Assembly (NCBI GenBank): GCA_000310025.1
Contig: FN649729.1
Span: 2,391,214-2,434,311 of the forward strand
Direction: 5' to 3'
Origin: Ectocarpus siliculosus
Lineage: Eukaryota > Sar > Phaeophyceae > Ectocarpales > Ectocarpaceae
DNA: 43,098 nucleotides
Within the stretch, counting starts at the first letter, position 1; each line of letters opens with the position of its first letter. Below the pieces are notes generated by a model. It was not told the origin of the DNA and did no database searches. It saw only the letters and a list, made by a program, of their open reading frames with translations. Of this stretch, positions 3,512 to 42,300 are shown in pieces. The position numbers and the translations under genes were made by a program.

Positions 3512-5670
3512 CAGTGCGCCACGAACACATGAATGGCCACACATCGCAACCTAACCCCAACAGGCGCCAGGTACAAACCACGTTCCTACAATACGCGATC
3601 CTTACAAAAACCTTAATCAATGACAAACTGAACAGGCTCAAGACACCCACAAAGTTCAATCCAATCGATCCTTACAAAACACTTAATCGCCCTCGAAACA
3701 AACGGACTCGGTGAAACCCGAGGGGACTACACGTCACCTTGAGGTTGGTGACAATGTTGAGCGTCTTCTTCGAAAGCCCGCCCCTGCCGTTACCGGGACC
3801 CGATCGTCTTCGCCCCCCCCCGAACCTGCCGCCGGTACCGCCGGTACCGCCGGTGACAGTCCCGTCGAACTGCCTCTCTCGGTTGATCCCGCTCGTGCTC
3901 GTGCGCTTTCGCCTCGGCGTCGCCGTGCTCTTCCGTTCGCGAGCCACAAACCCAAGCAAGAAATAAAACCGATGATGCATCAAATCGATGTGGGGGTGGT
4001 GGGAGGGAAGAAGCAAAGTTGATGGATGAAAAAATTTCCTCGCGTCGGCAAGGAAGCCCTTGACGATCTGGCGATGGGAAGAAGGGAAGGGGCATCGGGT
4101 TTGAAAAGCGATACAAATGCTCTTCGTGTCAGCGTAAGCCCGTGATGATCAGTCATGGTCCAGGCAACTTGATTGTGGTGCACCCCACACCCAGTACAGT
4201 ATTTCAGGCCTGCCTCTGCTTGCTTCCGACCTCGCTCGAAGACTTCTGTAATTGATGGTACACAAAAGAGAGAGCGGCTCCGGAGCTTACCCGCACCCCG
4301 TTCGCTGTCACCGCCGAAGCCGCCGCCGGCCCCAGCCCAAGCCCAAGCCCGCCTCCTACCCTCGCCGCTTCTCTCAATCCATCGCCCTCCGCAGCAGAGG
4401 CACCACCGTCTACCCGCCCCGCCCCCCCGCCACAACCACCACCGTAATCGACGTTCCCTGTCCAGGGTGGCGAAACCGCTGTGCGTGACGCAACCGCGCC
4501 AGCGCCCCCCGCCCCCGCCCCCCCGCCGCTTCCCCTGGCCTGAAAGGGCCTCCTTGCCCCCGCCGGAGGTCCCCAGAGCTCGTCGTCCGCCAGCACCGAG
4601 TGGACAACACCGCTGCTGCTGCTGCTGCTGCTGTTGCTGCCTCCGTTGCCGTCCAAGCAGGAGTTGGCGCTGGTGGGGGTGCCCGCCGGTGGCGGGGCTG
4701 GTGTGTCCGGGGCTGCGGTCGGTGCCGGTGCTGTTGAGCGTTTTTTTATGCGAAGAGTGAGAGGGGTGGGAAGCACAGCCATTATGGCACCTACAGATGT
4801 ACTTGCAAACCCAGCGGTTGACTCTTTACGTACAATACACATGAGATATCATATGATGCAACACTCCATCAATGAAAGACGCACCCCAGACAAAGTTCAA
4901 CCCATGTGAGATGGCACTGCTGCTGCAGAGAGAGAAAGATGGCGACAGCCATATGATATATAGAGAGAGGGGCGGGGAGGGAGCCAGCGGGAGAGAGAGA
5001 GAGGGAGAGACTGGTAAGTACAGCAGCTGTACAAATAGAGTAGTCTACACCTCAAAGAAACAAAGAAACATCTTCTGTCGTTGTTGCAAACAAAAGCGAC
5101 CGCAACTAGGATGTTGAAACAAACGCGGTTTGATCATAATAATCACCAAGGCACAGCGGCAGTGATACGTAGGTAGCAACATGTCGTGCATCAGGAGGAA
5201 CGCGAAAAGGCCCGCCTGTCTCCCAACACGCGCGCCAACGAACACCTGATGAAGGCGCGCGCGGCTGAGAGAGCGCAAGACCTACAGAACTGCTGTGTTT
5301 CGCTGCTTGGAAGAACAGAAGATAGATGCGTTCGCTACTGCTGCTGTACATATGCACTTCCTCACCAGACGAAGCCGGCTGGAAAAACACAGCTTGTCGC
5401 TGCTAGCCGCGGTACGCAAACCGTGTCCCACATACCACTTAGACTGGTCTAATAGCCTTGCATAGACAGATAGAGTCATCACCACAACAACACCGGAGGG
5501 AAGAATTGAAGTTGTTTGTCTGGGAGAGGAACAATCGGATGTTGCTGCTCCGCTTTCTCACCGAACACGACGCACTCTGCGCCACGAGGTTGCCCAGGGC
5601 TCTGGAACGAGTCGTCCCCCACGGCAGCCAGCGGCTCCACAAGGCAGAACTCATCCGCCTGGCCGCTCAT
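595..5670 (-). CDS. Rab-family small GTPase with long N-terminal extension (partial, 3' end off window)
   Basis: Seven exons join in phase: 5670-5562, 4790-4291, 3929-3738, 3370-3266, 2725-2591, 1902-1736 and 682-595; the rest lies beyond position 1. The G domain is unmistakable: P-loop GDSGVGKTS, switch I with [32 protein letters not shown] and the guanine-specificity motif GNKVD. By family these switch GTP/GDP states on membranes to control vesicle traffic; the sequence looks Rab1/Rab8-like. Unusually, about 302 residues precede the G domain: a first exon starting MSGQADEF, a Gly/Ala/Ser/Pro-rich exon, a basic exon, and a charged helical exon ([18 protein letters not shown]) likely to form a coiled coil. 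Four consecutive introns are phase 0. The start at 5670 was chosen because its donor (GTGAGA) and the acceptor at 4790 restore the frame exactly; a fallback start is the ATG at 4782. The prenylation tail is not visible. Certain as a Rab domain; the extension rests on splice phase alone. Confidence 0.8.
2435..2478. repeat. 12-bp tandem repeat, three copies
   Basis: Three adjoining copies of a unit close to ATACGGTATGGA (the middle copy has ATACAGTATGGA) lie in the Rab intron between 1902 and 2591. Nothing suggests a function. Confidence 0.6.
3266..3370 (-). CDS. Coiled-coil exon of the extended Rab gene
   Basis: This 35-codon exon is bounded by an AG acceptor (3372-3371) and a GTACAT donor and keeps phase 0 on both sides. 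It encodes an almost uninterrupted run of Glu, Arg, Lys and Leu, typical of a coiled coil or single alpha helix. It sits directly before the exon that opens the Rab domain at 2725. The intron just upstream of it carries two long CAG repeats. A separate upstream gene ending near here cannot be fully excluded, but no stop codon or initiator ATG separates the two exons in the spliced frame. Confidence 0.65.
3404..3512. repeat. Two CAG trinucleotide tracts in a Rab intron
   Basis: CAG/CAA triplets run at about 3404-3450 and again as pure AGC at about 3479-3512, separated by a short interrupted segment. They fall within the minus-strand intron between the exons at 3738 and 3370, so they are not translated in the model given. 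Expected to be length-polymorphic. Confidence 0.85.
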
Positions 5671-6639
5671 AGCAAACTTTTTTCACCAGGACACCGGCCG
5701 GGTGTGTGCGAAAGAGGGTGCAGCATCAGTAGCTGCGCGTCGCAATAAAAGAGTATATGCGGGCAAAACGAAGCCTCCAACGGGAACTACTCCCCCCCCT
5801 GGAAACCCTGACAAGCAAGCGGCGGGCGGCGGAGAGATCCGCGCTCACAGCAGTGCTCTCACCGTACATAAACGCCGACAGAGAGCGGAGCAGGAGCGTC
5901 GGCATCCAATCTCCGACAAAGGTACGCTGGGTAACTCACGCACTAGGACTCGGCACGTCTTTTTGGATCTATTATGCAGCATAGCAGCTTGTATCTGGCT
6001 ACGAGCGTACCACGAAGATACAGCAGCAGGTAGCCACCGACATTATTACCTATCTATTATCATGTTCATACTCTGGCATGACGAAGACACGTTAGGGATG
6101 TGCCACGTACTCAGCTTACATATGCGCCTAGTGCAAAAGCAATGCTTCATCTGGTCCAGAGACACCTAAGCATGACGAGTTTTATTGTTGTTGGATCCCG
6201 CGGGGTGGTGGCCAGCACACACCCACAGAGACCCACCCAGCAGGTGCGAAGCAAAAGTGCCGAACCCAGGCAGGAACCAGAAGCGAAAGATTGACTGACG
6301 AAGTAAGGGAAATCTGCGTTTTGTGAGAAGCGGCAGAAATAATCCGTTGGCCAATCAGAAAGCAGGAAGCGGACGAGCGTGTTGATTCCTGTTTTCAGTA
6401 TATACTCGCTTCGCCGTGTTTACCGGGGGCGAGCGAGAGCACGTGTGTGTGCTTGTGGTGGCCAAGGGTTGTTTCTGCCGTGACAAGCTTGTTGTGAAGT
6501 GAAAGAGGCCCGACGAATAGTCTCGCCCTTCCCGCCTTATTACCCCCGTCTGCGTCACACTACGACTCACCTCTCAGCGGGCAAACAGAGCAAAGGCCGT
6601 GCGTTGTGTACACGCACAGCGTTAGGGGTGTGAGCCGGT
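5671..6639. promoter_or_regulatory. Divergent intergenic region between the Rab and SDHAF1 genes
   Basis: About 970 bases separate the start codons of two genes transcribed away from each other, so both promoters should lie here. Near the SDHAF1 side there is a CCAATCAG element at about 6351 and a TATA-like TATATA at about 6399-6404, some 45 bases apart and about 235 bases before the ATG. Both are ordinary core-promoter motifs; their use is inferred. No further gene is supported here, although a 217-codon plus-strand frame (from 5516) crosses part of it. Confidence 0.45.
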
Positions 6640-11310: not shown

Positions 11311-11975
11311 TTACCCGCGTAGCTTGATGACTCTCTGCACCTTGTCGACCACCCTCCTGCATAGGATGCACGGCTTCCCCTCGTAGGCGGAACCGCACCG
11401 CGAGCACGTGCACTGGTGGGCGCACGGCAGGAACAGGATCTGAAGCCAAAAGGGGTACCAGAAGGTGGTGGTGGTGAGGAATGGATGGATGGGAGTGGTA
11501 GGTTTTCGGCTGCTTTCTGGTACAGGGTACCGGAGCGACAAGCCAGTTTGCCCCCCCCCCCAAAAAAAAAAAAAACACTGGTTCATACTTGCCTGGGCCG
11601 GCGAAAACCCGGCATACCGCTCCATGTAGGGATGCGAGGTCAATGGCCTAACGACTCCGGCATGTGCTTGTACAAGTACACCCCCCACACACACAAGGCA
11701 CGAGAGATACGCACCTACATCACCTTGGTTGCAGCAGCAACAGCAACCATACCCCAACGAGACAGCATTAAGCTGACGGCAAAGATAGACAGCATTAGGC
11801 TGACGGCAAAGATAGTCATTCCTCCACTCGAGGTTCTTACGTCCACGAGCGCGTCCAAGCAGATCTTGCACGTGTCCGGGTGGTCCGGGTCCAAGCCGTC
11901 CGAGTCTTCGTCATCGTCATCCATGCCGCCGCCACCACTACCCTTCAGGGCATTCAAGATGCGAATCTGCTCGCC
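11311..11975 (-). CDS. End of SAM domain and C-terminal RING finger
   Basis: Exon 11975-11841 completes the SAM domain with GEQIRILNALKG, passes an acidic linker and starts the RING with CKICLDALVD. Exon 11439-11311 supplies LPCAHQCTCSRC and CILCRR and ends in TAA. The eight metal ligands follow C-x2-C, C-x-H-x3-C-x2-C and C-x2-C, the arrangement of C-terminal RINGs in IAP and MEX-3 proteins. By family this recruits an E2 enzyme for ubiquitin transfer. The position at the very C-terminus, with a short basic tail, is also typical. Confidence 0.9.
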
Positions 11976-13472
11976 CTGTTGACACGGAGCAGAAGGCGGT
12001 GCGTGAACGAGATATAGCGAGAGAGCAGCGACTGCCGTAGAGGGATTACGGCCGCGTGGGTGCAGGCCTTTGCGGCACGAGTACAGGGAAGAGGGGGCAG
12101 CAAACGCACACGAAAAGGGCTTCGGAGTTCACATCGGTTCTGCACCTCTTCTCTCCTCTCCTCTCTCTCGGCGAGTTACGCACACGGGTTGCACAACACC
12201 ACACGTATGCACGTGCCGTGCCAGTGTCGTCTCCTCCTGGCATTGAAAACGCATCCCAATCGTCTTCTCTCCATGCTCTGTGGGGCTGCGGCAAAAAAAA
12301 GGAAACAGCAGAGCCCGGCCGCAATAAACCGCATCCGGCGGCAGTCAAGTCGCAGCTCACCTCGGTGACCCCCATCCTCTCAAAGTCCCTCCTGTCCATC
12401 ATCAGCAGCACCTCCCCATCCAGCTGGTCTTCCCGGAACCTCTCGAGGTGGTGCTCACACCCGGCCACCCTCAACAGCTGCCGCAGCTCTCCCCCCCACG
12501 CGCCATCCTCCACAACCACGGGTGCGGCGCCCCCGCCCCCGCCCCCGCCAGGACCCCCAGTAACCGGTTGCGCGGGGCGGGCTCGGGCACCCTCGGCCTT
12601 GCGGGCGGCGACGGCGGAAGAAGGTGGCGGGAGAGCACTGGGCTGGCAGCCCTTGGAGCGGTAAAACTCCTCTACTAACCTCTTGGCAGTCTGGAGCCCA
12701 GGCGCAAAGCATGAGGCGGTAAGGCGGGGGGGGGGGGCAGAAACAAGCACGGTTTGATGTACGGCGGCGTGACGTTTCGTGTTGGAAAAGGCCGGGTTAA
12801 CAAGACCTTCGTGTAAATATGTATCCCTCCAGTTCCGTTAGCCTTCAGTGGGGTGCTCAGCGAGGAGTTGCAAGAAGAAAGAGGGGCCACGGCTGGCGTG
12901 ACCGCATATGACTGTTACCGGCACTTCGCGCGAGCGGGAGCGTGACAGGATACATTCTACCCTAACGGTGACCCTTCGTGTCATTGGAGGGGGTGGAGAA
13001 GGGAGAGGGCATTGACGACGATGACGCCGCCACTGGCACCAACTCCATCGCAACGACCAACCACCATAGACTGGTATCGCTAAACACCGCACCCGAACAC
13101 AGTTGCGGCAACAATCAAGTGTGCTGCCAAGCACTCGGCTCTTGCTGACCTTGACCGCGTTTGGAGTCCCCGTGATGATCACGTCGTTTCCGCTCCTGTC
13201 AGGATATGGTTTCACTACGATCTTCGCCCTGCTATCCTTCATGAGCTTGTTGACCGTCTGGCCCTGCTTTCCGATGAGTTGCGGCGCGATGTTCTGCGCG
13301 CGAAGAAGAGGGGAGAGGGGAGGAGCCAAAACCGCGTGCCCCACACGCGCGAAAACACCACCAGCAGGGTCAAAACACCCACGGAGATCGCTCGAAACAA
13401 CTACAATTGCAACAGAAGCGACACACCGGGTGCTGCTATCACCACAACCAAGACAACGATAACAGCAGCAGC

Positions 13473-13504
<32 letters not shown>

Positions 13505-16279
13505 CCGCTTGGATAAAAAGAGAATAAAAACGGCAAGATCTAGAAACAAAAGGTGAGTTCATACCGATCACCCCCACAAACCAAAATCCCCCTCGAGACC
13601 CCCCCGCCTACCCCCTCGCGCCTCCTCACGTTTGGACAGAACATGTCGTGCTGAGTAGGCCTCTGAGCCGCTGCTGCCTGCGCCGCCGCGGCCCCCGCCC
13701 CCGCACCCCTTACCGGTGCGGGCTGGCTAGCTTGCTGGAGCTTCTGGTCCTGTTGTCACGATTTGAGTGTTTCGCGGACATGCACCATGCCGGCGAAAAC
13801 GGGGCAGAAAACAAAAGAAGGCATATGCGTGAGTCATATCTATCGACCTCGATATGTACGCGCACAACAATTACCATATACTTTCAAAGTACTACTTGTG
13901 GTTTTTATGTGTGGTACATGTTCACTTCCGGAATACCTTCATGTCAGTCCCCCATGCCGTGCCCCCAGCCCCCTCGTTCCGCGAACCGGTAGTGGCGCGA
14001 GCAAGCAGAAGCGGTCAAGCCTTGTTGCTGTTCTACCCTACATCGAGATGGACAGGGTACATCGCGATGGACAGGGTACAACAAATACACCTGCACCACG
14101 TTCGTTCCATTCACCCCCCGCCAGGGGTAACCTCCTTGAAAAACTAATCTGGCTTGACCACGACGAACCGTGTGGCGTGTGGCCGTCGGCCCGCGCGCAC
14201 TCTCCTCGTGTCAACCTCACTCTATCCGAGCTGGGACTTCGGCGCAAGCCCCCCGCCCCCGTGCATTTTTTTCACACACACTCACCTCCCCCGCCTTCTT
14301 GTTCAGATATCGTTGGCACTTCTTCTTGATCTTCTTCATGCTGGCCCCGGGCGTTTGGTCCGCCTCGTCGTAGATCGACTGGACCGCCAGCGTGTTCTGT
14401 TTCAAGACCCGACGTACACGTTGTTGTTGTTGTTGTTGATGTTGATGTTGTTACTTTTGTTGTTGATATGGTCGTTGATAATGCTGCCACAAACGATGAT
14501 CATCGTTTGCGCATGGTAAGGGTGTCGATTTGTTCTGGGAGACACGACGACGGGGGAAGTCCGGGTGGCTCCTCAAGTTAAGCCATGTTTTGTGTTCCCT
14601 TCCAATACAATACCACGATCGACTGACCTGCGAAAAACAGTCAGCCTTGGCGCAAAAAAACAAAACCTTCGGATGCCCGCGGTCTCCCACCACTTCAGTG
14701 GCTTAACGCCCAACACGATGGCGCGTGTTAGCTGGGGATTTTTGACTGACTACCCTATAAACACTCTGTGCCAGCGTACACCCGTCTAAGCACAGAGCAG
14801 GCAACAGTACCGCCGTGTGTGGCGGACGGTGTCATGGCGCAACCTTCACGATTCGATGAAATCTGGGCAATCAACACCAACATCGCTCGGTGTGGTCGCT
14901 ACAATGCACTCCTCCCGGGGGCTCCCACAATTCTCTCCCGAAGAACTGTGATGATCTCGAACCACCAACCGTACCATCCCCGGCACGACACGCCCGAAGC
15001 ACCACCGTCATCCCTCGCCCACCACAGCCCAATCCTACGCCGATAAAAATAACCCCCGACGGCGACAGGAACCCCCTGGCCAAACAAAACCACACACACA
15101 CAAACGCCAGGGCACGACTATTAGCGCGAGAAACGAGAGCCACCGACGGCCCAGCCCACGGCCTCACTCACTCCGCTGTCGATAGCCTTCTTGAGCCGGA
15201 CCTCCAGCGACATGTCCGCCAAGAGCGCTCCTCCTCCCCCCACCCCGCCGCCCCTCATCGCCGGACCCGTCGCCGCCGCCGCCGCTGCCGTCGCCGCCGC
15301 TGCCGCCGCCGCCTCCTTCTCCTCCCGCTGCGCCTTCTCCGCGGCCCTTGCTTCGTTCGCCGCCTTCGCGTCTGCGACGGCCTTGGCCCGCTCCTGCCTC
15401 TTCGCCCGGTTTGCCTGTTGTAAGTCGGCGCTTTCCTTGGCGGTCTTCTTGGCGGCCTCTTTGGCATCCTTCTCCGCCTTAGCCTGTGCAGCCACCGCCG
15501 CCATGACTCTGAGGGGGACAAAAGAGATCATCCAGCACGGTGAAAGAGGTGGCGGGTTGTGTAAATTTCACGTAAAATGAGGAAAACAAAAAAAGAGCAA
15601 AACACAAACACGGTGGGGGTGTCCTTTATGAGTGAATATTGTGGGTTGGGATGGGTCAATCCGTGAATACAGCAGATGGTCGGAACAAAGTGGGTGTGTT
15701 GTGTGAAATATTGGGGGACAGGTCTTCGGGAAATTTCCGATGACTTTTGCGAGTGAAGGTTGTGGGTGGGGTTGTATAAACCCGTTTCATAAAGAATGCG
15801 GATTGTTGGAAGGGTGTGTATACTGTGTTGTGTGAAATATTGCGGGATAGGTCGTCCGAAAAAATCCGATTGCTTTACGAGTGAAGATTGTGGGTTGGGT
15901 TGTGCCAATCCGTTCAATGAAGAATGCAGATAGTTCCGCAACAGCGGGTGTGCTGCGTGAAATATTGGGGGATAGGTCTTCGGGAAAAAGTCGATGAAGC
16001 GGCCGAGAGTCAGAGGAGAGAAGACGAAGAAAAAGGGGGGTGGGTTCTGTCTTCAATGCCTTACGTTGGCGTCGGAGGATATATGCTTCACAAGGTTAAG
16101 ATTCATGGACAACACGTGGAAAAAACACTTTCGATCGAAGCGCACACCAAATATCAGGTTAGCGCGATCCCTAGATCAACATCTACAGCCGCCGCTGTTT
16201 CGGCACCACCGCTCTTCCCTGTACACGATTGGCCAAACGCAGGAAACCCACAGGAACGACTACAGATCATCTCTCTCTC

Positions 16280-16318
<39 letters not shown>

Positions 16319-16345
16319 GTGTCTGTCTGTCTGTCTGTCTCTCTC

Positions 16346-16413
<68 letters not shown>

Positions 16414-19400
16414 TCTACATTTAACGCTACATTGGGCCGAATGAAAAGTTTGAAACCGTCAGCCAGCGTGGCATTCGGCGCGAACGAACACACCCACTGG
16501 CTGACCTTCTGCCAACCGGTAAGCGCGTACTAATATTCAAGACACGCACACACATATGGCCTTGAGAAACATCTTCTGTTTTCGGACGCACTGAGGCTGG
16601 GACGGACACAATTTCATTGGTCAGCCAGTTGGCGCCGTTGATGCCAATACACAAACACACACATTAGAACACGCGTGGCTTGCGTTTATTATCCCGCAAC
16701 TAGATTGGCGTCTTTTCATTGGTTTTGGACGGTTAGCACGGTCGATGTCATTAACGAAGAACCACACCATTTTTTGCTTGATGAGCCGACTATTTAGCGC
16801 GGTCGACGCAAGAAACAAAAACAACACTAACACGGCACGACTGCACCCACACCTGGCTTCTGTGGCGGCCTTAGCCTCCGCGATCCGAGCAGTCTCTCTG
16901 GCGGCGGCCTCTGCCTTGCTCCGAGCGGCGCCGGCGGCGGTGGCCTCCCTCCTGCGTGCGGCGGCCTCTTTCCTGGCGACGGCCTCCTGCGTCTCCCTGT
17001 CCTCCCTCTCAGCCGCCTCCTCCGCTCGCCTGAGATTGTTTTGTTGGTTTGTACGTAGTCGTAGTTACTAAGATTGTTGGTTTGCAGATGCTGAAGTTAT
17101 TTCGTTGGTTTGTAGTGGATGCGATTTTCGGTCGTTTAGGCATGATCCGTCCGTTTCGACACCTACGTTACCCAGTACCTCTACAAGAAGTATCTGCACA
17201 CCGATCCCAAAATGCATAACCTTGAGTAGTCACAGGCTTTGCCAGATATGAAACCGAGTTCAAGCCCAACGGTCCAAAGGAGGAGAGGTTGGTTCTGGGG
17301 TGGCGTGATTGATTCCCATCAAGTGGCGTATGTATCAAGCCGCTCCCGAAAAGGTACCGAAATACAACCACCGGGTCTAGTTTTCACTCCCTCGTGTGGC
17401 TCGGAGTGGCGACGAAAACAACACCTGGGAAGCCGTGCGTCAGGGAGGCAGGCAGAGAGGCAGGCTTTGGTCAACAGCTCAGACTCTGACGTCCTGCCTC
17501 CTGGCGCAAATAAAAACCGGCATGACCTCTACCTAAGTCCTTCCTCTTGCCTACTCCATTCTTTCATCCCAATGTAGCAGTGAAACGAATGAGTTTCTCT
17601 GATCGCAAGCTCATATAAAATCAAGGTACAATACGCACACAACGATAGCGACCCAGAGTTATCGAGATACAAATGTGCATGGAAGGATTTTGTTGGGCGG
17701 CACAGCCATGGGGTCCTAGAATCTAGGATGACAAATCGCCCGGGCGCGTGACAACTCACCAAAGTGGAACGACACGGGGAATTACACCGCAAAAAAATAT
17801 CGGGGGGGAGGGTAAGGTGAATCCCCCACCCGAAGCGAAAAAGAGAGAGAGAAAGAAAAACGCTACCGAGTTGTGGTGTCGTGTACCTCGCCGCTTTCTT
17901 AGCCTTGGCCGCCTGCTGGCGCTCCTCGGCCGCCTGCAGGTCAGCCATCTGAGCCTCCAGGGTCGCCACGCCGACAGCTCCGGCGGCGGCAGCGCCGACT
18001 TCCTTCTTCCCCGCGCTAGCCCCCGTCTTGAGGAGCTGCTGCTGCTGCGGCGGTTGTTCCGTCGCCTTGGCGGCAGTGGGCTTCTTTGCCACCGCCGCCG
18101 CCGCCGCTGTCTCCTGACCCACCGTCTTGAGACCGGCGGCCTCGACCGCGGGGACCTTCTTCGTCTCTACCGCCGCCGGCCAGGGTACCTGTTGTTCCCG
18201 GCCCGTTGCTGCCCGAGGGATGTCCGATGACCGCACGGCTGCTCTGGCAACACTAACAGCACCACCAGCAGCAGCACCACCACCATCAGCACCACGAGCG
18301 GCGGCACCGCCACTGGCAGCAGCCGCGCCGGCCATTTCGCGTCGATCCTCGCCTACCGCCGCCGCCGCCGCTGCCGCCGCTGCCGCCCCTGCCTGTGGGA
18401 CCTGCACGGCCTGACCCAGGAACACAACGCACAGGGCAGCATGAGGAACACAGAAAGTGAGAGAGCGCACCATGCCCTGGAGAGGGAGCCCGCGAACTAG
18501 AAAAGCGGAAATCACTCGTGTTTTTGACTGCCCCGCCGTAAGAATGACGTCTTTTCATTGGTCAGTCCGGCTAGTCTTTTCATTGGTCAGTCCGGCTAGC
18601 GCAGTCGATGCTCATTCGAAAACACACAGGCACAAATGCACACGCGCGTTCTGTTTTTAACCGCACTGAGAGACTGACGTATTTTCATTGGTCACCCCGC
18701 TAACGCGGTCGATGCTAACAACAAAAAAACACAAAAACACGCACACACGCACACCTCACGCGTTGCCACCGAAGACCCAGGCCACGCCGCGAGGGGCCCG
18801 CGGACGTCGTTTGTCGCACCCCGGGGGCTGTCTTGCACGGGCGCGCTGAACTTCGGCAGGCCGCCACCGCTCTTGCCCTCCTCGCGACGCGTTCGAATCT
18901 CCGACCGCGTTCTCAGGGCGCGGCCCATCCAAGAAGTGAACCGATCGTGGTTGAACCCGCCGGCTTTCCAGCTCGCCGCCATCGAGTCTATGTCCTTCGC
19001 AAGCTGTGAAACTGCTCAACAACAATCGCGTTCAATATGCACACGGCGCCCACCCCGAAAAACTGAAAATAAGAAAACACCTTGTATGCATAAAACAAAA
19101 AAAAGTCCGAAGAAGGAGCTCTTGTTATGGGTAAACAACCCTCGCTATTATAGTCATTTCCTCTTGTGAGAAAATAACCAAATAGACGACATACAGCGGT
19201 GTGGTGCGGGGTCGTATGCACATGAACATTGTAAATATTCGGACTCTCACGTTCTTGATTGCGTGGTGGCGTGTTCTGTACGAAAACAGGTGCAACAACC
19301 CCCCAAAAAACACATCGCAAGCGGAGGTATATCATATCATACGGTAGCGCATACACACGTAGGAGCCAAGTCCCGTCTGCCGCACCGGTCGTGCTGGCGC

Positions 19401-21749
19401 TCGACGATGATTCAGCTCCTCCTTCCGCTCCACCACCCGCCGCGGCCGGGGCTCCTCTAGGCTGCGCCTGCGCCTGCTGGACCTCTCGCAGCCTCCTTTG
19501 CTGTTGCTCGAAAGGGTTTTCCCATGTCTTTCGACATTGCGGGGGCGAGGGATCGGCACTTTAGGAGGCAGGGCATCGACGTAGTAAATCTCAAAAGGTG
19601 GGTCAAGAGAAACCACGGGGTACAACAGCATCCAACGTTATGCTCTATAGTACAACACCACCATAGACTTGGAAAAAAAAAGAAGCTCCTTCCTTTGCCG
19701 CTTTCCTCCTGTGTGGCCCCGGCTGGTGCTTCCAGAAAATGTATCGAAAGGCGTTCAAGCTGGCGTTCAGAATAAAGGGGAAAATATTTTGCAACGACAC
19801 CAGGCATGTCGACGTGCTCCGGTGACGCCAGCAAGAGGCACCTGTTCCAACGCACACCCAACCGCGAGCTAACGCCCCCCTCCCCCCCAAAACAATCGGC
19901 CTTCAGCCACAGCGAGCAAGAGTGCGCTCGATACAAAGGTCGTCGCCGCTACCCCCAACAAAGGTACACGGCTACAATACGCTGCGCTAGCTGAGTCAGC
20001 GAGCAAGAGCATGTTCGTCACAAACGCCACCGCCGCCCCTCAACAACAACAACAACAACAACAACAACAACGCACACGGCTGAGCTACCTGCCCAACTCA
20101 CCGTCTCGTTGTTCTGAGCGTTGTGCCAGTACGGACGGTTGTCGTGGTCAGGCGAGGTGTACATCGTCCACGCCCCGGCAGCGGACGCGGCGTGCTCGTT
20201 CGCGACCACCTGTTCCATCGCCTCCCGGCACTGCTTCAGGGTTTGCCGCACGTCTTCCGAGCCGCCGTGGTACAAATCCACCACGTCTTCGGGGGGATTG
20301 TTGGATCCATCGATCGATAGGGGGGTGGGTGGGTGGGTGGGCAATTCCGTTAACAAAAAAAAAACAGAGCGCGTTGGGGCTTTGGTGATCTGATCGACCC
20401 CCCAGCCGGTCACTACTACACCATGTTCTGAACCACCCTTGGAGCTGAGTTGCCGAGCTCACGCTTACCCTCCCCCCATCTCTCCTTCCCCGTTCATTCC
20501 CCCGCGCCCGTGACCGTACCACCTACCCCGCCGCCGCCCCCACACAAACGACAGGCACCGCGAAGGGGTCGGTCCTCTTTCCAAACCTGGTGCACCAAAA
20601 TACAGGAACGAACACACCTCTCTGGCAAATTCGACGGTTTCACATCGACGGTTCCAACAACGAGTGTAAAGAGTCTGCATCGGATTTGCCTTCACAACCT
20701 TTCTTTCTCTCTAAAAAACACGAAAGGCACACCTGACTCTACCCATCCATAGAAAAGTGCCCTAACCGTCTCCACGCTCGTCACACCCCTCAGCGTCGAG
20801 CGTCGCCCCCGGGCAAGACCCCCCCCCTTCTCCTCCTCCTCCTCCTCCTCCTCCCACATGGCCACCACTTCCCGCACGTGCTCGACGGGAAGCCGCCGAC
20901 CCCCCTGCCCGCCGCCACCCAGCGCCTTCCGCGCTTGTTCGAGCATGCGCAAGACGCTCGCGCCCAGAAGCGAAGATTCGTCGGCCGACTCCCCGACCGC
21001 TGCGCCCCACACGCCTTCGCCGTGACCAGCAGCCCCGGCAGGCACCTTCTCCTCTAACGCCCCTCTACTACTAATAGCGCTCTCCGCAACTCCAGCCGCC
21101 GCAGGTTTGGTGGGCTGGGGGATTGCAGCAGGAGGAGGCTTGGTCTGCAAGGCCTCGGCGGCGTGCGGCACCGGCGTCGACGTGTTAGTGCGGGCCATGT
21201 CCGCCCCCGCAGCAGCAGCACCCATGCCGGCGGCAGCAGGGCCGACATCAGCGGCACCACCAGCAACAACACTGCCACCACCACCGACACCACCAGCAGC
21301 AGCTGCACCACCAGCAGTTGCACCAGCAGCGGCAGCGGCAGCACCGACACCGGCAGCAAAAACAGCACTGCCGGCCCCGACGCCAGAGGCAACATAAGCG
21401 ACACCAGCAGCGGCACCAGCAGCGCCGATACCCGCCCCAAGAACGCCGGTACCAGCACCACCAGCGGCGGCAGCGCAACTACCACCAGCGGACGCGCCAC
21501 GGCCGGCGGCGACGGACATCCAGCGGTGGGTGACCTCCGCGCGCAAGGCGATCGAGCGGGGAGCATGATGCGCCTCCGAAGGGCCCGCCGATGCCCCGGC
21601 GACAGCGGCGACGGACTCCTCCCTCCTCCTGTTGTTCCTTCCCAAGCAGAACTTGGACCACTTCTCGATGAAACCCGCCGTCGACGCCATGTGCTGTTCG
21701 TTTTCGGGTAGGGGAGGGGGGGACAAGGACGGCTTGGGGATGCCGTCAG
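11311..21749 (-). CDS. WW - coiled coil - KH - SAM - RING multidomain protein (3' part of the long locus)
   Basis: Exons joined by splice sites and phase: 21749-20733, 20286-20102, 19527-19357, 19003-18755, 18410-17887, 17029-16853, 15508-15172, 14396-14286, 13749-13714, 13293-13150, 12690-12361, 11975-11841 and 11439-11311, ending in TAA. In order they encode an Ala/Gly-rich region, a WW domain, a segment of unknown nature, Ala-rich and charged helical (coiled-coil) exons, a KH domain with GKQG loop, a SAM domain and a C-terminal RING finger. KH domains bind single-stranded RNA, WW domains bind proline motifs, SAM domains self-associate and RING domains recruit E2 ubiquitin enzymes. The likely role is therefore an RNA-binding ubiquitin ligase; that is inference. 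Nearly every intron is phase 0; the three charged exons use phase 2 and still match. KH+SAM (Bicaudal-C) and KH+RING (MEX-3) proteins are known separately. The 5' end is uncertain: it may continue into the Cys-rich exons at 22639-26200 or begin at the ATG at 21690. Confidence 0.75.
12361..14396 (-). CDS. KH domain and most of the SAM domain
   Basis: Exon 14396-14286 encodes a Lys-rich helix (SMKKIKKKCQRYLNKKAGE). A 36-base micro-exon at 13749-13714 follows. Exon 13293-13150 carries the KH core: NIAPQLIGKQGQTVNKLM, with the invariant GxxG loop as GKQG, and the last strand IITGTPNAVK. Exon 12690-12361 completes the KH helix (TAKRLVEEFYRS), passes through a Gly/Pro-rich linker and gives the SAM domain from LRQLLRVAGCEHHLERF to RMGVTE. 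All junctions are phase 0. The KH domain probably binds single-stranded RNA. One unusual donor (GTCAGC) follows the KH core exon. Confidence 0.85.
13461..13505. repeat. CAA/CAG trinucleotide tract
   Basis: About 45 bases of CAG passing into CAA triplets in the intron between the micro-exon and the KH core exon. Confidence 0.9.
15172..18410 (-). CDS. Ala-rich and coiled-coil exons
   Basis: Three exons (18410-17887, 17029-16853, 15508-15172) are joined by two phase-2 introns, each splitting an Arg codon as AG/G and AG/A. The first is Ala/Gly/Gln-rich and ends in helical LEAQMADLQAAEERQQAAKA. The other two are almost wholly charged helix (EEAAEREDRETQEAVARKEA, then AKAEKDAKEAAKKTAKESAD), strong coiled-coil candidates. 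The last exon is cut at GGA/GTGAGT; read on without splicing it would end 18 codons later at the stop at 15121, an alternative 3' end. Confidence 0.7.
15629..15995. repeat. 120-128 bp tandem repeat, three copies, intronic
   Basis: Copies begin at 15629, 15749 and 15877, each with GAGTGAA..TTGTGGGT and later GTGTGAAATATTG.GGGA.AGGTC. They lie in the intron between the coiled-coil exons at 16853 and 15508. On the minus strand they read as an open frame of 137 codons with repeated PQYFTQH motifs, but it has no splice link to the gene. Confidence 0.8.
16270..16413. repeat. Compound CTGT/CT microsatellite
   Basis: About 140 bases alternate between CTGT and CT blocks and finish in pure CT, inside an intron of the long minus-strand gene. 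All three plus frames and the minus frames are open through it, which produces spurious Cys/Leu/Ser or Arg/Glu proteins. Confidence 0.95.
16580..16840 (+). repeat. Dispersed TTTTCATTGGTCAG family, two copies and a fragment
   Basis: Copies at about 16580-16665 and 16683-16765, and a fragment at about 16784-16815, share CATTGGT, a GGTTAGC or AGTTGGC stretch, and GGTCGATG/GGTCGACG followed by an A/C-rich tail. They sit in the intron upstream of the coiled-coil exon at 15508. Confidence 0.6.
18541..18745 (+). repeat. Dispersed TTTTCATTGGTCAG family, two copies, one with doubled core
   Basis: At 18549-18600 the core TTTTCATTGGTCAGTCCG occurs twice in tandem, followed by GCTAGCGCAGTCGATGCT; a second copy at 18672-18720 has TTTTCATTGGTCACCCCG and CTAACGCGGTCGATGCT and ends in AAAAACAC repeats. 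Both lie in the intron between 18755 and 18410. Confidence 0.7.
18755..19003 (-). CDS. Exon of unknown fold after the WW domain
   Basis: An 83-codon exon with phase 0 at both ends, acceptor TTTCACAG and donor GTGTGC. It encodes LAKDIDSMAASWKAGG and a basic, Arg-rich middle. I recognise no domain. It is assigned to this gene by strand, phase and position. Confidence 0.6.
19357..20286 (-). CDS. WW domain split over two exons
   Basis: Exon 20286-20102 ends with GAWTMY...RPYWHNAQNNET and exon 19527-19357 begins TWENPF. Spliced in phase 0 they form a complete WW domain: first Trp in GAW, the central aromatic pair in PYWHN, the second Trp in TTWENP and the closing Pro. WW domains bind short proline-rich or phosphoserine-proline peptides. 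Before it lies a helical stretch; after it come a Gln/Arg-rich helix and a Gly/Ser-rich linker. The donor used here (CTACGT/GTGTAT) is weaker than most and could lie a few bases away. Confidence 0.85.
20041..20070. repeat. CAA trinucleotide tract
   Basis: Ten CAA triplets in the intron just downstream of the first WW exon. Confidence 0.95.
20733..21749 (-). CDS. Ala/Gly-rich exon before the WW domain
   Basis: A 1,017-base exon follows a strong pyrimidine-rich acceptor (CTCTTTTCCAG). It opens with a Pro-rich stretch, then a conserved-looking segment (STAGFIEKWSKFCLG), a long low-complexity tract of Ala, Gly and Val at about 21.15-21.50 kb, a helix-prone part and a run of Glu before ending at TCAG/GTGTGC in phase 1, which the WW exon accepts. 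Low complexity makes both strands open in several frames here. A candidate extra exon at about 20664-20608 is possible but not phase-compatible with this model. Confidence 0.55.
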
Positions 21750-22394
21750 CTGGAAAAGAGCACAACATCCCGCGCACGCTGCTGCTGTGCTGGAGGATGG
21801 GTCGCGCCGCAAATATGCATACCAGTATACAGGCGTTGCTGTACATAGACGGAAAACAATAAAAAAACTGTCGTGCGCGACAGTAACCTTCCCCTGCCAG
21901 GCACATGAGTTATTCTGCAATCGTTCGACAGCGCGCAGAACCGACTAGCCCACACCTCGCAAGAGCTGGCCCTCAATCGCACGGGGTATTCGAATGGTAC
22001 CACTTTTACTGCAAGTAGTGGTGACATCACATACAGCGGTGGCAGTAGAATCGGAGAAGTGGTAGCGTGAATGCTAAGTAGGGTGAGTAGAGTGTTGCAC
22101 ACTTTGCCAGACACCTCCGACAGAATTCAGGAAGTGCTATGCATACGATATGGCAATTTCATGAATAAATAATAAATATCGATCGTGGCAAGAGACGGAC
22201 CCATCACTTTTTTCTTACAAGAGGAACGCCCACAGGCGCGACAAAAAACGCAAAAAAAATGAGCTATTAGGTGTCTTATTGATAACCCGGGATAGCCGCT
22301 AGCGTCGCGCATATGGTGTGGTTCCGCAAAACTGCTGGCTGGCGCCAACCCCTTCAACCGGCATTCTAGCGCGCGACCGGCATTCTTCAGAATT

Positions 22395-24199: not shown

Positions 24200-26200
24200 C
24201 CCATTCTTTGCGATCTATATCACAACAGCACATCACCTTGCGGCAGTAGTCGCACACCCGGGCGTCGCACACCTCGCAGCCACACCTACCACTCTCGCAC
24301 AGCCGGCAGACCGCCTGACAGCAGCATGGCCGTCCGTCATCGTCCACGTTCGTGTTGAATAAAAAATATAAAAAGAAGGGAATAGGTAAAAGAAATGGAT
24401 GAGAAGATGAGGTCAGATCCCATCCCAACACAAAAAAACACAACTTTATTGGCGTGTCAAATCAGGTTTTTCGTCGCCGTCGTCATCGTATTATTGCATT
24501 TGGCGTCGTCATCGTGCCGCTTTTTTTTCGTACGATCACGGACGCGTGTGTTGGCCAGAGCAAACAAGCGTCGTGGTGGTTGCAAAAAGCCTGGTATCAT
24601 CACAAAACGGGAAATAATCTTTCTGTGACTGTATGCCCCCATGTTCTAATACAAGGCCTGCCTGCTAGAAGCATGCATACATCATACCTCCCGGCACCCC
24701 GGGTGTCCCTGGCAGGGCAGGAGGCAGTCCGTGCCGGGGTCGCCGGTCGGGCGGCAGTGCGGCATCAAGCAGCCAGAGCACTCCGAGAGCGAGAGCCGGC
24801 AGCTCGAGCAGAAAACACTCTGCAGGCAAGCAAGCAGGCAGGGAGGCAGGGGGCGTCAGGAACCCCGTTGGGTGCCATTTTTTTTCATAACTTGGTCGGT
24901 ACAGAAGGATACGTCTTGCAATGAACCAGATCGAAAAAAAAACAACCAAACTGCTGTTGTTGTCTGTTGGGGATCCCGACGGTGGGGCTACTGCTGCTTA
25001 ACAAGGGGCGGAAAGAAGGGCGAAAGGCGCCCAGCGGACGAGCGCAGCTTGCACGCCGGCGGGGCGGAACATTCTTGCGAACGTGGTGGGAAGAAAACGG
25101 TGGGGGAGATCCGTTGCCGTTCGTCCCTGTGTGTCCCCAAAGGCAGCCGAAAAACGCAATGAACATAGGAGGACGAGATAAAAAAACACCAGCCAGACGT
25201 AAGAGGAGACCTGCAGCGAGCAGCACAAAACGCGCACGACAAAAAGTTCGTCCCTACAATTCACAAAGACGGGACTCGACGGCGGTGCTGCCAGCGCTTT
25301 CTCAAGGGGAACACGTAAAACAAACTCGTTCACAACCACCGGAGTCGAGCCATGGGCCTGACGTCTTTTCATCTGCCAGCCGGAGGGCACGTCCGACGTC
25401 AATTAGAGAGAAATACAACCACAAACAACACACAGGTCGCCCACCAAAAAAACTGCGAGATGGGGAATATACTTATAGAAGTACTCCTTACTAAGGTTAC
25501 AAATGAAGGATAGAGTTGTGTCAGCACGAAGTACATAGTTGTGCCATCACGACCTACTGCTCATGTGCGGTTGACATAACGACCAAACTGTCCACACGAC
25601 CCCGAACCACAAACACAACGGCAGGCCCACCGCAAAATTACATACCTCGCAGCTCATGTTGGAGCAGCGCGTCGAGCACTCGGGCCCCGAGCACACGAGC
25701 CTGGCGCACGCGCAGCAGCACACCGCCTCCGCCGCGATCATCTCGTCCACCGAGACTCCGTCGCCGCCGCCGCCGCCGCTCTCGCCGATCGCGCTGAAGC
25801 TCACGGCCCTGGCGCAAGGGTCGCACAGCGGCAGCCTTCCCCCGCACCAGCTGCAAGCGTTCGACAGGTCGGGCGGGCCCAGGTAATCCCCCGCCGCCCC
25901 GCCGCAACCGGCGCACCGGATGGTACCCACCATCTCCGCCGCGGCGTCCATGCCGGAGGCCCCTTCCGCTAGGCCACTGCCGCCGCCGCCGCCGCCGGGG
26001 CCGGGGCCGCCGGGGCCGAGCGGCACGTGAGAATACGGACCCAACATCATTTGGTTATCCATCTGGGCTGCGGGGGCGGGGCGGAGCCTGCTGGGTGGTG
26101 GTATATCACAAGTAGCGATGTCGCTGAAGATGGATGGTCTCCAGGCTTGGTTTTTGCCTATATTGGGGCGCGAAGGGGTGGCAGAGGGTTTGAACGGCAT
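22639..26200 (-). CDS. Cys-rich putative zinc-binding modules (5' part of the long locus)
   Basis: Five exons, all phase 0 at both ends: 26200-25646 (ATG start), 24819-24688, 24314-24237, 23509-23438 and 22731-22639. Each encodes paired cysteines, such as CAGC, CSWC, CCCAC in exon 1, CSSC and CSGC in exon 2, CRLC and CDYC in exon 3, CEVC and CPEC in exon 4, CLLC and CDMC in exon 5. Most exons end in a Cys/Arg/Glu-Glu (or Lys) pair at the donor, suggesting one duplicated module. The pattern resembles treble-clef zinc fingers but matches no family I can name. Exon 2 is closely similar to an exon at 38787-38918. An upstream in-frame alternative to the start is the internal ATG of MDNQMM. The last exon can also start at 22714 in another frame, which would join the Ala/Gly-rich exon at 21749. 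Whether this is a separate gene or the N-terminus of the WW-KH-SAM-RING protein is open. Confidence 0.7.
23638..23657. repeat. Poly-G run
   Basis: About 18-20 consecutive G within an intron on the minus strand (C run in the transcript). Length is likely unreliable in any assembly. Confidence 0.9.
24167..24200. repeat. CTG trinucleotide tract
   Basis: About eleven CTG triplets just past the donor of the Cys-rich exon ending at 24237; untranslated in the model. Confidence 0.9.
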
Positions 26201-26316
26201 TAATGGGTGGGTGGTGGGGGTATAGAGTCAGAGACACGAGGCGCGGTACGTACGCTATGTTCGATCAGCTGGCGCTTTTGGGTCGAAACCTCCGTAGGTT
26301 TGCTTGTGCGTGTGTT

Positions 26317-39332: not shown

Positions 39333-42300
39333 GGGGGGGGGGGGGCGTACTCTTATGCTTTGCATGCCTTAGCGGTTAGACCATTGACCACGCGTCCTCG
39401 AGAGGACGGAGCATTGTTCCCACAGGACCGATCACCGATGGCCAATCGTTCCTTCCTACTTTGCCAAAGGTGGCTCAAAAATGTCTTCCCTAGTCTGTCT
39501 ATCCTACCGATGTCACTTCCCGCCTTTTCAAACCACTTCCTACTCCCCAGTACCGCTACCGTCCTCTCCTCTCTATTCCATGCCTCAAACATCTCCCTGT
39601 ACGTCCCTTGTATTCTTCCCAGCTCAGTCATGTACACTTCCCTCTCCTTTTCGTACCACGGACATTCCGCGACTACATGAACACTGTCTTCGCATTCGAA
39701 GCCGCAATCGCATTTGAACTTGTCGTCTTCGTCGTCTACCGTCCTATGTCTTCGTCGACGTTCGCGAAGGCCTATGTCCCCGGTCCTGAATTTGACCTTA
39801 AGCTTTGTCCCTGCATCCATTGGTCCATGTAGGTAATCCTTGAACCCTATTCCTTCTTTCAACATTCCGTACACTTCTAGACCCTCCTTATCCTTGGGTT
39901 CTTTCCTTAGATTCTGTTCTTCTCTGTCGGCACAAGCAACAGATATCTTCTTCTTGAACCCCTGTAGACCCTCCGTTTCCAGCGTTTCATCTTCGTCGAT
40001 GTCCAATCCCTTCCATACGTTCTCTACAACCTTGACCCATTCCGTGGGTTGTCTACCCCTCTTTTTGTTTGCCCACTTCGCCTCCCATACTTTTCTCGGC
40101 AACCTCTCCTCTCCCATCCCGCACATGCGGTACTGCCATGTCAGCTTCCTTACGTCTCTTCCCGACCGTAGGGATTGGATCCCCAATTCTGCCCTGACTG
40201 CTGCATTACTTGTGCGCTTGGAGCATCCTAGGATGATTTTCGCTGCTTTCATCTGCGCCGCCTCGAGTTCTTTCACTACCTTCTTATTTCCTTCCCATAC
40301 TTCTCCGGCGTACTCCAGCGGCGGTACGATTACGCTCTTCAAAACCGTCAATTTGATGCGTGTATCAAGGTGCCGGTTTGCGAGTATTGGGTGCAGCTTC
40401 CCTGCTCGTGCTTTGCCCTTTTCCGCTACCTTGGACATGTGTGCATTCCACGAGCAATCTTTTGCGATCTCTACTCCGAGGTATGTGTACTGGTCCACTA
40501 CTGCAATCTCCTCGATCCCCCACTTCCATCTATGTTCTACTGGTTCCTCCCTGCCCTCGTTGCATACCATGACGGCACTCTTCGTAACGTTGGCAGACAA
40601 TCTCCACTTATCAGTAAACTTCTTCGCCGCGTCAATTTGCAGTTGCAGTCCCTCAGGGGTGTCCGACATACCAACAAAGTCATCCGCAAACAGCATTCCT
40701 GACACCGAAGTTTCCGTGTCCCCTACTTTTACTCCCTTCCGGACTGCCTCTACGACTTCCAACAGATCGTTGATGAACACCTGGAACAATGTTGGGGACA
40801 GCGTGCAACCTTGTGGGACCCCCTGCTCGATGTCGAAGAATTTAGACAGTTCTCCGTCTAGCATGACCGCGCTTTTCGTACACTCTGTCATCTTCTTCAG
40901 CACCCTCCACATTTTCCCCTTGATCCCGTACTTGAACAATTGTTTCCACAGCCCATTTCTCCATACGGTATCGTATGCCTTTTTCACGTCCAGGAAGAAG
41001 CAGTACGTCCGCTTGCCCGCCCTCTTTCTACCTTGGATGATTCTCCCTGCCGTGAATGCGTGGTCTACGCACCCCCTCTTCTGTCGGAAACCTGCCTGGC
41101 CCTCACTAATGCTACGTTTCTTCTCCAATACTCCCACTATCCTATCGTTCAGCAGCTTACAAAACACTTTTCCTACTGTGTTCAACAGTGTGATACCCCT
41201 GTAGTTTCCTGGGTCAGTCTTGTCTCCTTTCTTAAACAAGTTCACAACCACTCCTTCCCTCCATCTACTTGGCGCATACTCGTTTTTCCACACCCAGTTG
41301 TATAGCAGTACCATCAGCTGGATCATCCCCTTCCCCCCAAACTTCATGAACTCGTTTACTATCCCATCCGCCCCTGCTGCTTTGTGGCACTGCAGCTTGT
41401 TCACACACGCCTCAACCTCGTCCTCAGTGAACTCCTTTTCTAGTTCTACGTTCCCAACGTCTGCCTTCGATGTCTCTTCTTCTTTCTGGGCCCATGCGTC
41501 CACCTCCTCCTTAAACACTTGGTCAAAATCTTCATTCTCCGAAGGCACTCCAAGTCGCTTGTAGTGTCCTGCTAGAACTTCCCTTTTTCCCTTCCCACTG
41601 CTGACTAGTCCACCGTTCACACCTCGCAATGTTGCTACCCCTGTATCCCCCCCTTGCGCGGTCTTTTTTACCATCCCACTAATCCCTTCCCACATCTGCT
41701 TGACGTTCCCCTCCAGGCCTCCGTTGGCCTTCTGCACTATCTCGTCCCAAATGCTCTTTTTCTTCTTTTTCACTAGTCCCTTCACCTGTTTCCTCTTGGC
41801 CCTGTACTTTTCCCAACTCTCTTCAGACCCCTCACCCAGGTACTGCTTGAAGACTTCTCTACGTTCCCCTATTTCTTCTTTCAGCTCGTCACCCCACCAC
41901 TTAACCGATACCCCACATCGTACCACCTTTTTTCCCACTACTCTCTCTGCCGTTGTGTTCACTATGGACTCCCATCCTTCAATCACCCTGTCCCCTGCTG
42001 CCTGTACGTCTACCTTTCCGTCTTCGACGCTTCTCAGCAGTTTCCTGAAGGGTTCTACATTACCAGCCAATCCCTTCTGGAATTCATCGCGTGTCCCCTC
42101 GTCTCCCAAACGCTCTACTTTCCACCGGAACACTTTCCTCTTTTTCTTACTCTCCGTCTTTCTAGATCGGTCGATGTTTGCCCATATGGGGAAATGGTCG
42201 GTCGAGCCTATATCTATCGCACTTACGTGCAGCTCCGGGACCTGTGTGCTCCCCCTATCTACCAGGATGTAGTCGAGGATCGAGTATTCATTGCAAACTG

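Follow-up and report, generated by a model that had tools for sequence, protein, structure and literature searches.

The 43,098-nt window analysed here, a stretch of the genome of the brown alga Ectocarpus siliculosus (assembly GCA_000310025.1, contig FN649729.1, called C4 below, bases 2391214-2434311), carries on its minus strand a predicted 13-exon gene (21690-11311) that encodes KH, SAM and RING domains in one protein. Rebuilt from the raw sequence, 3576 coding bases within 10380 joined into a frame of 1191 amino acids (aa), whose sole stop codon (11313-11311) lies at its end, and all 12 introns (336-1344 nt) are of the GT-AG type with matching phases. This upheld the preliminary description, made from the letters alone, which had chained 13 exons by splice site and phase into a single minus-strand gene; the exon boundaries were picked by eye so as to keep the frame. 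A Pfam scan of the whole protein placed KH_1 at aa 942-1002 (47.0 bits, cut-off 21.5, 2.2e-12) with its GKQG loop at aa 954-957, SAM_1 at aa 1063-1116 (27.9 bits, cut-off 23, 3.1e-6) and the RING family zf-C3HC4_3 at aa 1138-1183 (40.7 bits, cut-off 27, 2e-10). The proposed succession of KH, SAM and C-terminal RING in one frame was thereby recovered in the spliced product, with all three domains over their cut-offs, and the domain order including the upstream WW domain reads WW, KH_1, SAM_1, C-terminal RING. The splicing is supported by these four domains, because each of them is split between exons and made whole when these are joined; for KH, SAM and RING, such fold-restoring junctions had been claimed before and were borne out by the rebuilt exons together with Pfam.

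Genome searches (189-Mb assembly, 492 contigs) with the KH domain located a second copy of the gene, 56% identical in this domain, roughly 29 kb from the first and on the other (plus) strand of C4, where the SAM and RING pieces gave neighbouring matches in the right order and exons were rebuilt at 2442164-2451008. Its nine readable exons are counterparts of E5-E13 (Table 1) in the same order and with every phase equal; the first of the nine is partial, cut by hand and not at its true 5′ end, and the eight fully read exons differ in length from those of the window copy by 0 or multiples of 3. Seven of the eight introns of the second copy are GT-AG and one is GC-AG. Blastn between the loci returned ten matches, all on exons, with intron overhangs of at most 7 bases and with all nine exons E5-E13 touched. 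KH_1, SAM_1 and zf-C3HC4_3 were found by Pfam in both copies, which also agree in 8 of 8 RING zinc ligands and in both GxxG glycines. Identity between the copies amounts to 343 of 510 aligned residues, and the Nei-Gojobori estimates of nonsynonymous (dN) and synonymous (dS) divergence, taken from one sequence pair with low-complexity stretches included and no significance test, were 0.222 and 0.709 (dN/dS 0.31), with dN/dS values of 0.28 for KH, 0.31 for SAM and 0.27 for RING and an exon-wise range from about 0.11 (E12, lowest) to about 0.57 (E7, highest). Since the second copy repeats the exons, their phases and the exon-bound conservation, a chance chain of open frames is very unlikely, and since it keeps the E5-E13 exons, phases and domain order, we conclude that KH, SAM and RING are encoded by one gene, as predicted from the genomic sequence. 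At the end of exon P10 of the second copy (C4:2446413) stands an apparent GC donor (CTG/gcaaga), where the window copy has GT.

Table 1. Exons of the window gene, in window coordinates and in coding order (a slash marks an exon/intron boundary).
Exon	Position	Strand	Content
E1	20733..21690	-	ATG at 21690, Ala/Gly-rich N-terminal part; donor G/gtgtgc; start and donor putative
E2	20102..20286	-	Bulk of WW domain (W359, Y372-W373)
E3	19359..19527	-	End of WW (W383, P386); junction with E2 restores the domain
E4	18755..19011	-	No match in Pfam; no other convincing copy in the genome
E5	17887..18410	-	Low-complexity Ala-rich part and beginning of charged Ala-rich stretch
E6	16853..17029	-	Charged Ala-rich stretch; exon of highest identity to second copy (50/58 residues)
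E7	15172..15508	-	Charged Ala-rich stretch; its end is a conserved block running on into E8
E8	14286..14396	-	Second part of the E7/E8 conserved block; no Pfam match
E9	13630..13749	-	Linker and beginning of KH
E10	13150..13293	-	KH core including GKQG loop
E11	12361..12690	-	End of KH, linker, bulk of SAM
E12	11841..11975	-	End of SAM, acidic linker, RING zinc ligands 1-2 (C1140, C1143)
E13	11311..11439	-	Six other RING zinc ligands (C1155, H1157, C1161, C1164, C1173, C1176), C-terminal tail, stop

Codon usage also preferred the chosen frame. A first test, which was flawed in that a frame from the second copy (L026) was among its 16 training loci and the window gene's own introns served as background, favoured the frame in 12 of 13 exons. 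Repeated without those, on 20 loci (9092 codons; the longest frame, whichever its strand) and on 23 loci (8378 codons, plus strand only), it favoured the frame in 12 of 13 and 13 of 13 exons, respectively, the training frames being long open frames and not proven genes. The weakest exon in every test was the Cys-rich E13. Other AG/GT sites occur near some N-terminal junctions (E1/E2, E3/E4), and those ends are less sure; the start was taken at the ATG at 21690, the same open frame also reaches 21749, which may be an upstream acceptor, and the gene model is provisional at its 5′ end.

The WW domain (aa 358-386), also claimed for this protein, was confirmed in part. It has both tryptophans, the Tyr-Trp pair and the closing proline, and scanned as a 40-aa piece it reached 30.4 bits, over the cut-off of 26.9, whereas in the full protein it scored 23.2 bits and fell below it. 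WW domains are common in the genome (75 matches at E ≤ 0.001), so that a WW domain in one of its genes is unsurprising. The second copy is uninformative on E1-E4, because part of its upstream region reads N, and queries with E1-E4 against the genome gave no convincing other copy, the only hits being a WW match on contig C411 and a match on C26 at E = 0.099. The C411 match (53% identity over 34 aa) sits in a Gln-rich gene, unrelated by eye, and was rejected as a copy of E1-E4. That E1-E4 are seen in the window copy only, together with the partly unreadable upstream region of the second, would fit a division into two genes, one with WW at the N-terminal side (E1-E4) and another, beginning near E5, with KH, SAM and RING. 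We consider such an arrangement unlikely, since the E4-E5 gap of 344 nt resembles the gaps of 446, 574 and 347 nt between E1 and E2, E2 and E3, and E3 and E4, leaving little room for a gene end and a promoter, the phases match, and in each of E1-E4 the chosen frame has the best codon usage, narrowly so in E3. The assignment of the WW domain and the N-terminal exons to the same gene is thus backed by frame, codon usage and short introns (344-574 nt) and weakened by their being seen in one copy only. Farther upstream, a Cys-rich open reading frame (25547-26227, minus strand) contains several CxxC pairs, has no Pfam match and is possibly a separate upstream gene. It was not joined to the gene as an upstream exon, judging by its most donor-like site, GAG/gtatgt, which is of phase 0, while the acceptor at 21750, read by eye, would need an exon ending in phase 1.

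The closest solved structures were sought with two-sequence profiles, which yield sequence ranks within the PDB and no tree. The KH profile matched Nova-1 (4.3e-12) and IGF2BP1 (1.6e-11), with FUBP also similar, and the closest solved RING was that of XIAP (9.6e-8), among RINGs of the IAP type; the SAM profile matched weakly (L3MBTL3, 5e-5; Sfmbt; DGK-delta; tankyrase-2, 0.01). The likeness to XIAP and cIAP extends to the C-terminal position of the RING, which ends in the tail VIKLRG; unlike those proteins, the window protein showed no BIR domain, nor any LRR, in a Pfam scan at E ≤ 1. RINGs of the IAP type function in dimeric form, and polymers are formed by the SAM domains of DGK-delta and tankyrase.

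Judged by its domains only, the protein is likeliest an RNA-binding RING ubiquitin ligase clustered through SAM. At the level of the gene model it has the architecture of the RNA-binding RING ubiquitin ligases (RBULs), with an RNA-binding domain and a RING in one polypeptide. In such a ligase the single KH would give modest RNA contact, and SAM would link several molecules, whereby weak KH contacts would add up and the IAP-like RINGs would come together. The RING would then recruit an E2 and ubiquitin would be attached to proteins sharing the RNA with the ligase, or to the ligase itself, changing the fate of that mRNA, while the WW domain would serve to bring in a proline-rich partner. The explanation as a whole, a nuclear KH-SAM-RING gene with a WW domain on its N-terminal side, a diverged second copy and a product that would work as an RNA-bound, SAM-assembled ligase, appears to us moderately probable. 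Several points weigh against it: the sub-threshold score of WW in the full protein, the knowledge of E1-E4 from the window copy alone, the modest SAM match, the hardly favoured frame of E13, the single sequence pair behind the dN/dS values, and the usually weak RNA binding of a lone KH domain. We suggest only tentatively, as a possibility, a lineage-specific RNA-dependent ligase in which a Bicaudal-C-like SAM polymer would carry its own RING and RNA-driven assembly would switch on ubiquitination, in two diverged copies tuned by WW in at least one.

Ligase activity is read here from domains, and RING-like folds lacking activity exist, so the protein might instead serve as a scaffold that binds RNA and carries a RING without ligase activity. 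This is decidedly unlikely, as both copies keep all eight zinc ligands, the dN/dS of the RING is the lowest of the three domains, with KH and SAM close, and in both copies an Arg follows the last zinc ligand, as it often does in active RINGs. PMC5707401 describes the RBUL class and counts at least 26 putative human RING-type RNA-binding ligases, sorted into five families according to their RNA-binding domain; the term "SAM domain" is absent from its main text (0 occurrences).

The predicted protein resembles MEX-3 and Bicaudal-C in logic, and it is neither by their definitions. Like MEX-3 (MEX3A-D), it has a KH N-terminal to a C-terminal RING in one chain and a likely role in mRNA-linked ubiquitination; MEX-3C, however, has two KH domains, as described in PMC6194269, whereas one KH_1 stretch was found in the 1191 aa here, together with SAM and probably WW. 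Nor is MEX-3 the closest KH and RING sequence: within the same PDB ranking, MEX3C was non-significant, its KH (E = 0.44) standing far behind those of Nova and IGF2BP and its RING (E = 0.17) far behind those of the IAPs (among the best 60 of 68 matches). In MEX-3C, as reported in PMC3625108 and PMC4617606, the binding of mRNA is linked to its decay, which depends on the RING, and HLA-A mRNA is one target of this decay (PMC3625108). Bicaudal-C (BICC1) shares the order of KH then SAM, with several KH domains and a C-terminal SAM, in contrast to the one KH and the RING after SAM of the window protein. According to PMC6056059, BICC1 is stabilised in cytoplasmic foci when its SAM domains self-polymerise; silencing of its target mRNAs depends on the same SAM surfaces, and its SAM surfaces also meet the CTLH complex, a separate ligase limiting BICC1 levels. 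The ligase of BICC1 is a separate complex, whereas the window protein has a RING in the same chain. SAM followed by a C-terminal RING is also the arrangement of LRSAM1 (TAL), which acts in TSG101 sorting and which, unlike the window protein, carries an LRR in place of KH. An ordinary MEX-3 or Bicaudal-C member with gained or lost domains would share these domain types, and the same genome contains a Bicaudal-C-like KH and two-SAM region on contig C37, yet such an origin is very improbable in view of the single KH, the distant ranks of the MEX3C RING and KH, and the SAM profile, whose 17 PDB matches up to E = 10 did not include the SAM of Bicaudal-C.

The coiled coil of the preliminary description was not supported, as no heptad pattern appeared in the charged Ala-rich stretch between WW and KH, residues 675-835 (42% Ala, 15% Glu, 22% Lys and Arg). 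The check, made by hydropathy periodicity and a/d counts and not with a dedicated coiled-coil program, found a 3.5-residue periodicity not above that of shuffled sequences (1680 of 2000 equalled or exceeded it); the power at period 3.6 was reached by 175 of 2000 shuffles, which is not clearly above them, and that at period 3 by 13 of 2000, which is above shuffles. In ten 28-residue windows, set in the register richest in hydrophobic residues or Ala, the a/d positions held at most two large hydrophobics. The stretch is probably an Ala-rich charged helical region and not a demonstrable coiled coil; its E6 part is not mere filler, as indicated by the identity of 50 of 58 residues between the copies. 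A 55-aa block follows across the E7/E8 junction (15172-15225 and 14286-14396), with 43 of 55 residues (78%) identical between copies. It belongs to no Pfam family and had no genomic match at E ≤ 1 outside these two copies, and a weak match to Xrn1 (0.015) was treated as chance; the block may represent a small domain, not yet described, that is particular to this pair of genes. A division into two genes, with the first ending at 15121 and the second beginning near 14.4 kb, a break raised in the preliminary description and suggested by an in-frame stop 3′ of E7 in the unspliced frame, is scarcely credible and was rejected, because the E7/E8 junction (15172/14396), spanned by this block, recurs with identical position and phase in the second copy, which makes the stop intronic, and because blastn conservation ends within 7 bases of the splice sites.

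Genome-wide domain tables at E ≤ 0.001 listed 20 KH, 11 SAM, 34 RING and 75 WW matches, and co-occurrence, read by eye, showed a KH and a RING as neighbours on one strand in the two C4 genes only, and KH with SAM on C37; these tables under-count domains split between exons, and they miss the SAM and WW of the window gene itself. The C37 region (C37:474513-478441) holds a KH and two SAM domains on one strand, and no RING match was found on that contig. Pattern searches gave 57 stretches in IMG/VR and 583 in a bacterial and archaeal genome collection, none of which tblastn identified as a relative; this was to be expected, the gene being eukaryotic. Among the matches listed in a literature search covering titles and the starts of abstracts, with most subscription papers outside its scope, no description of a KH+SAM+RING protein was found, nor one linked to Ectocarpus or a brown alga; one search for the three domains together led to the paper on BICC1 and CTLH alone. 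Each domain is known, and the combination looks unusual; provisionally, KH-SAM-RING (probably with WW) appears to be new among RNA-binding RING ligases. KH-RING (MEX-3) and KH-SAM (Bicaudal-C) are separate routes of mRNA control in animals, both of which are joined here in one predicted protein. Such a joined architecture, present in two copies in a distant lineage, would offer a natural test of whether RNA-driven polymerisation can gate a ubiquitin ligase and would suggest that RNA-linked ligases were invented independently.

The intron between the SAM and RING exons of the second copy contains a LINE-like retrotransposon (L004, about 3839-5813) with a 663-aa open frame, counted from the edge of the stretch, that matches RVT_1 (6.8e-34). 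Another copy of this element lies in the window at 39333-41307 (minus strand) and is 99.5% identical over 1975 bp, which points to recent movement of the element.

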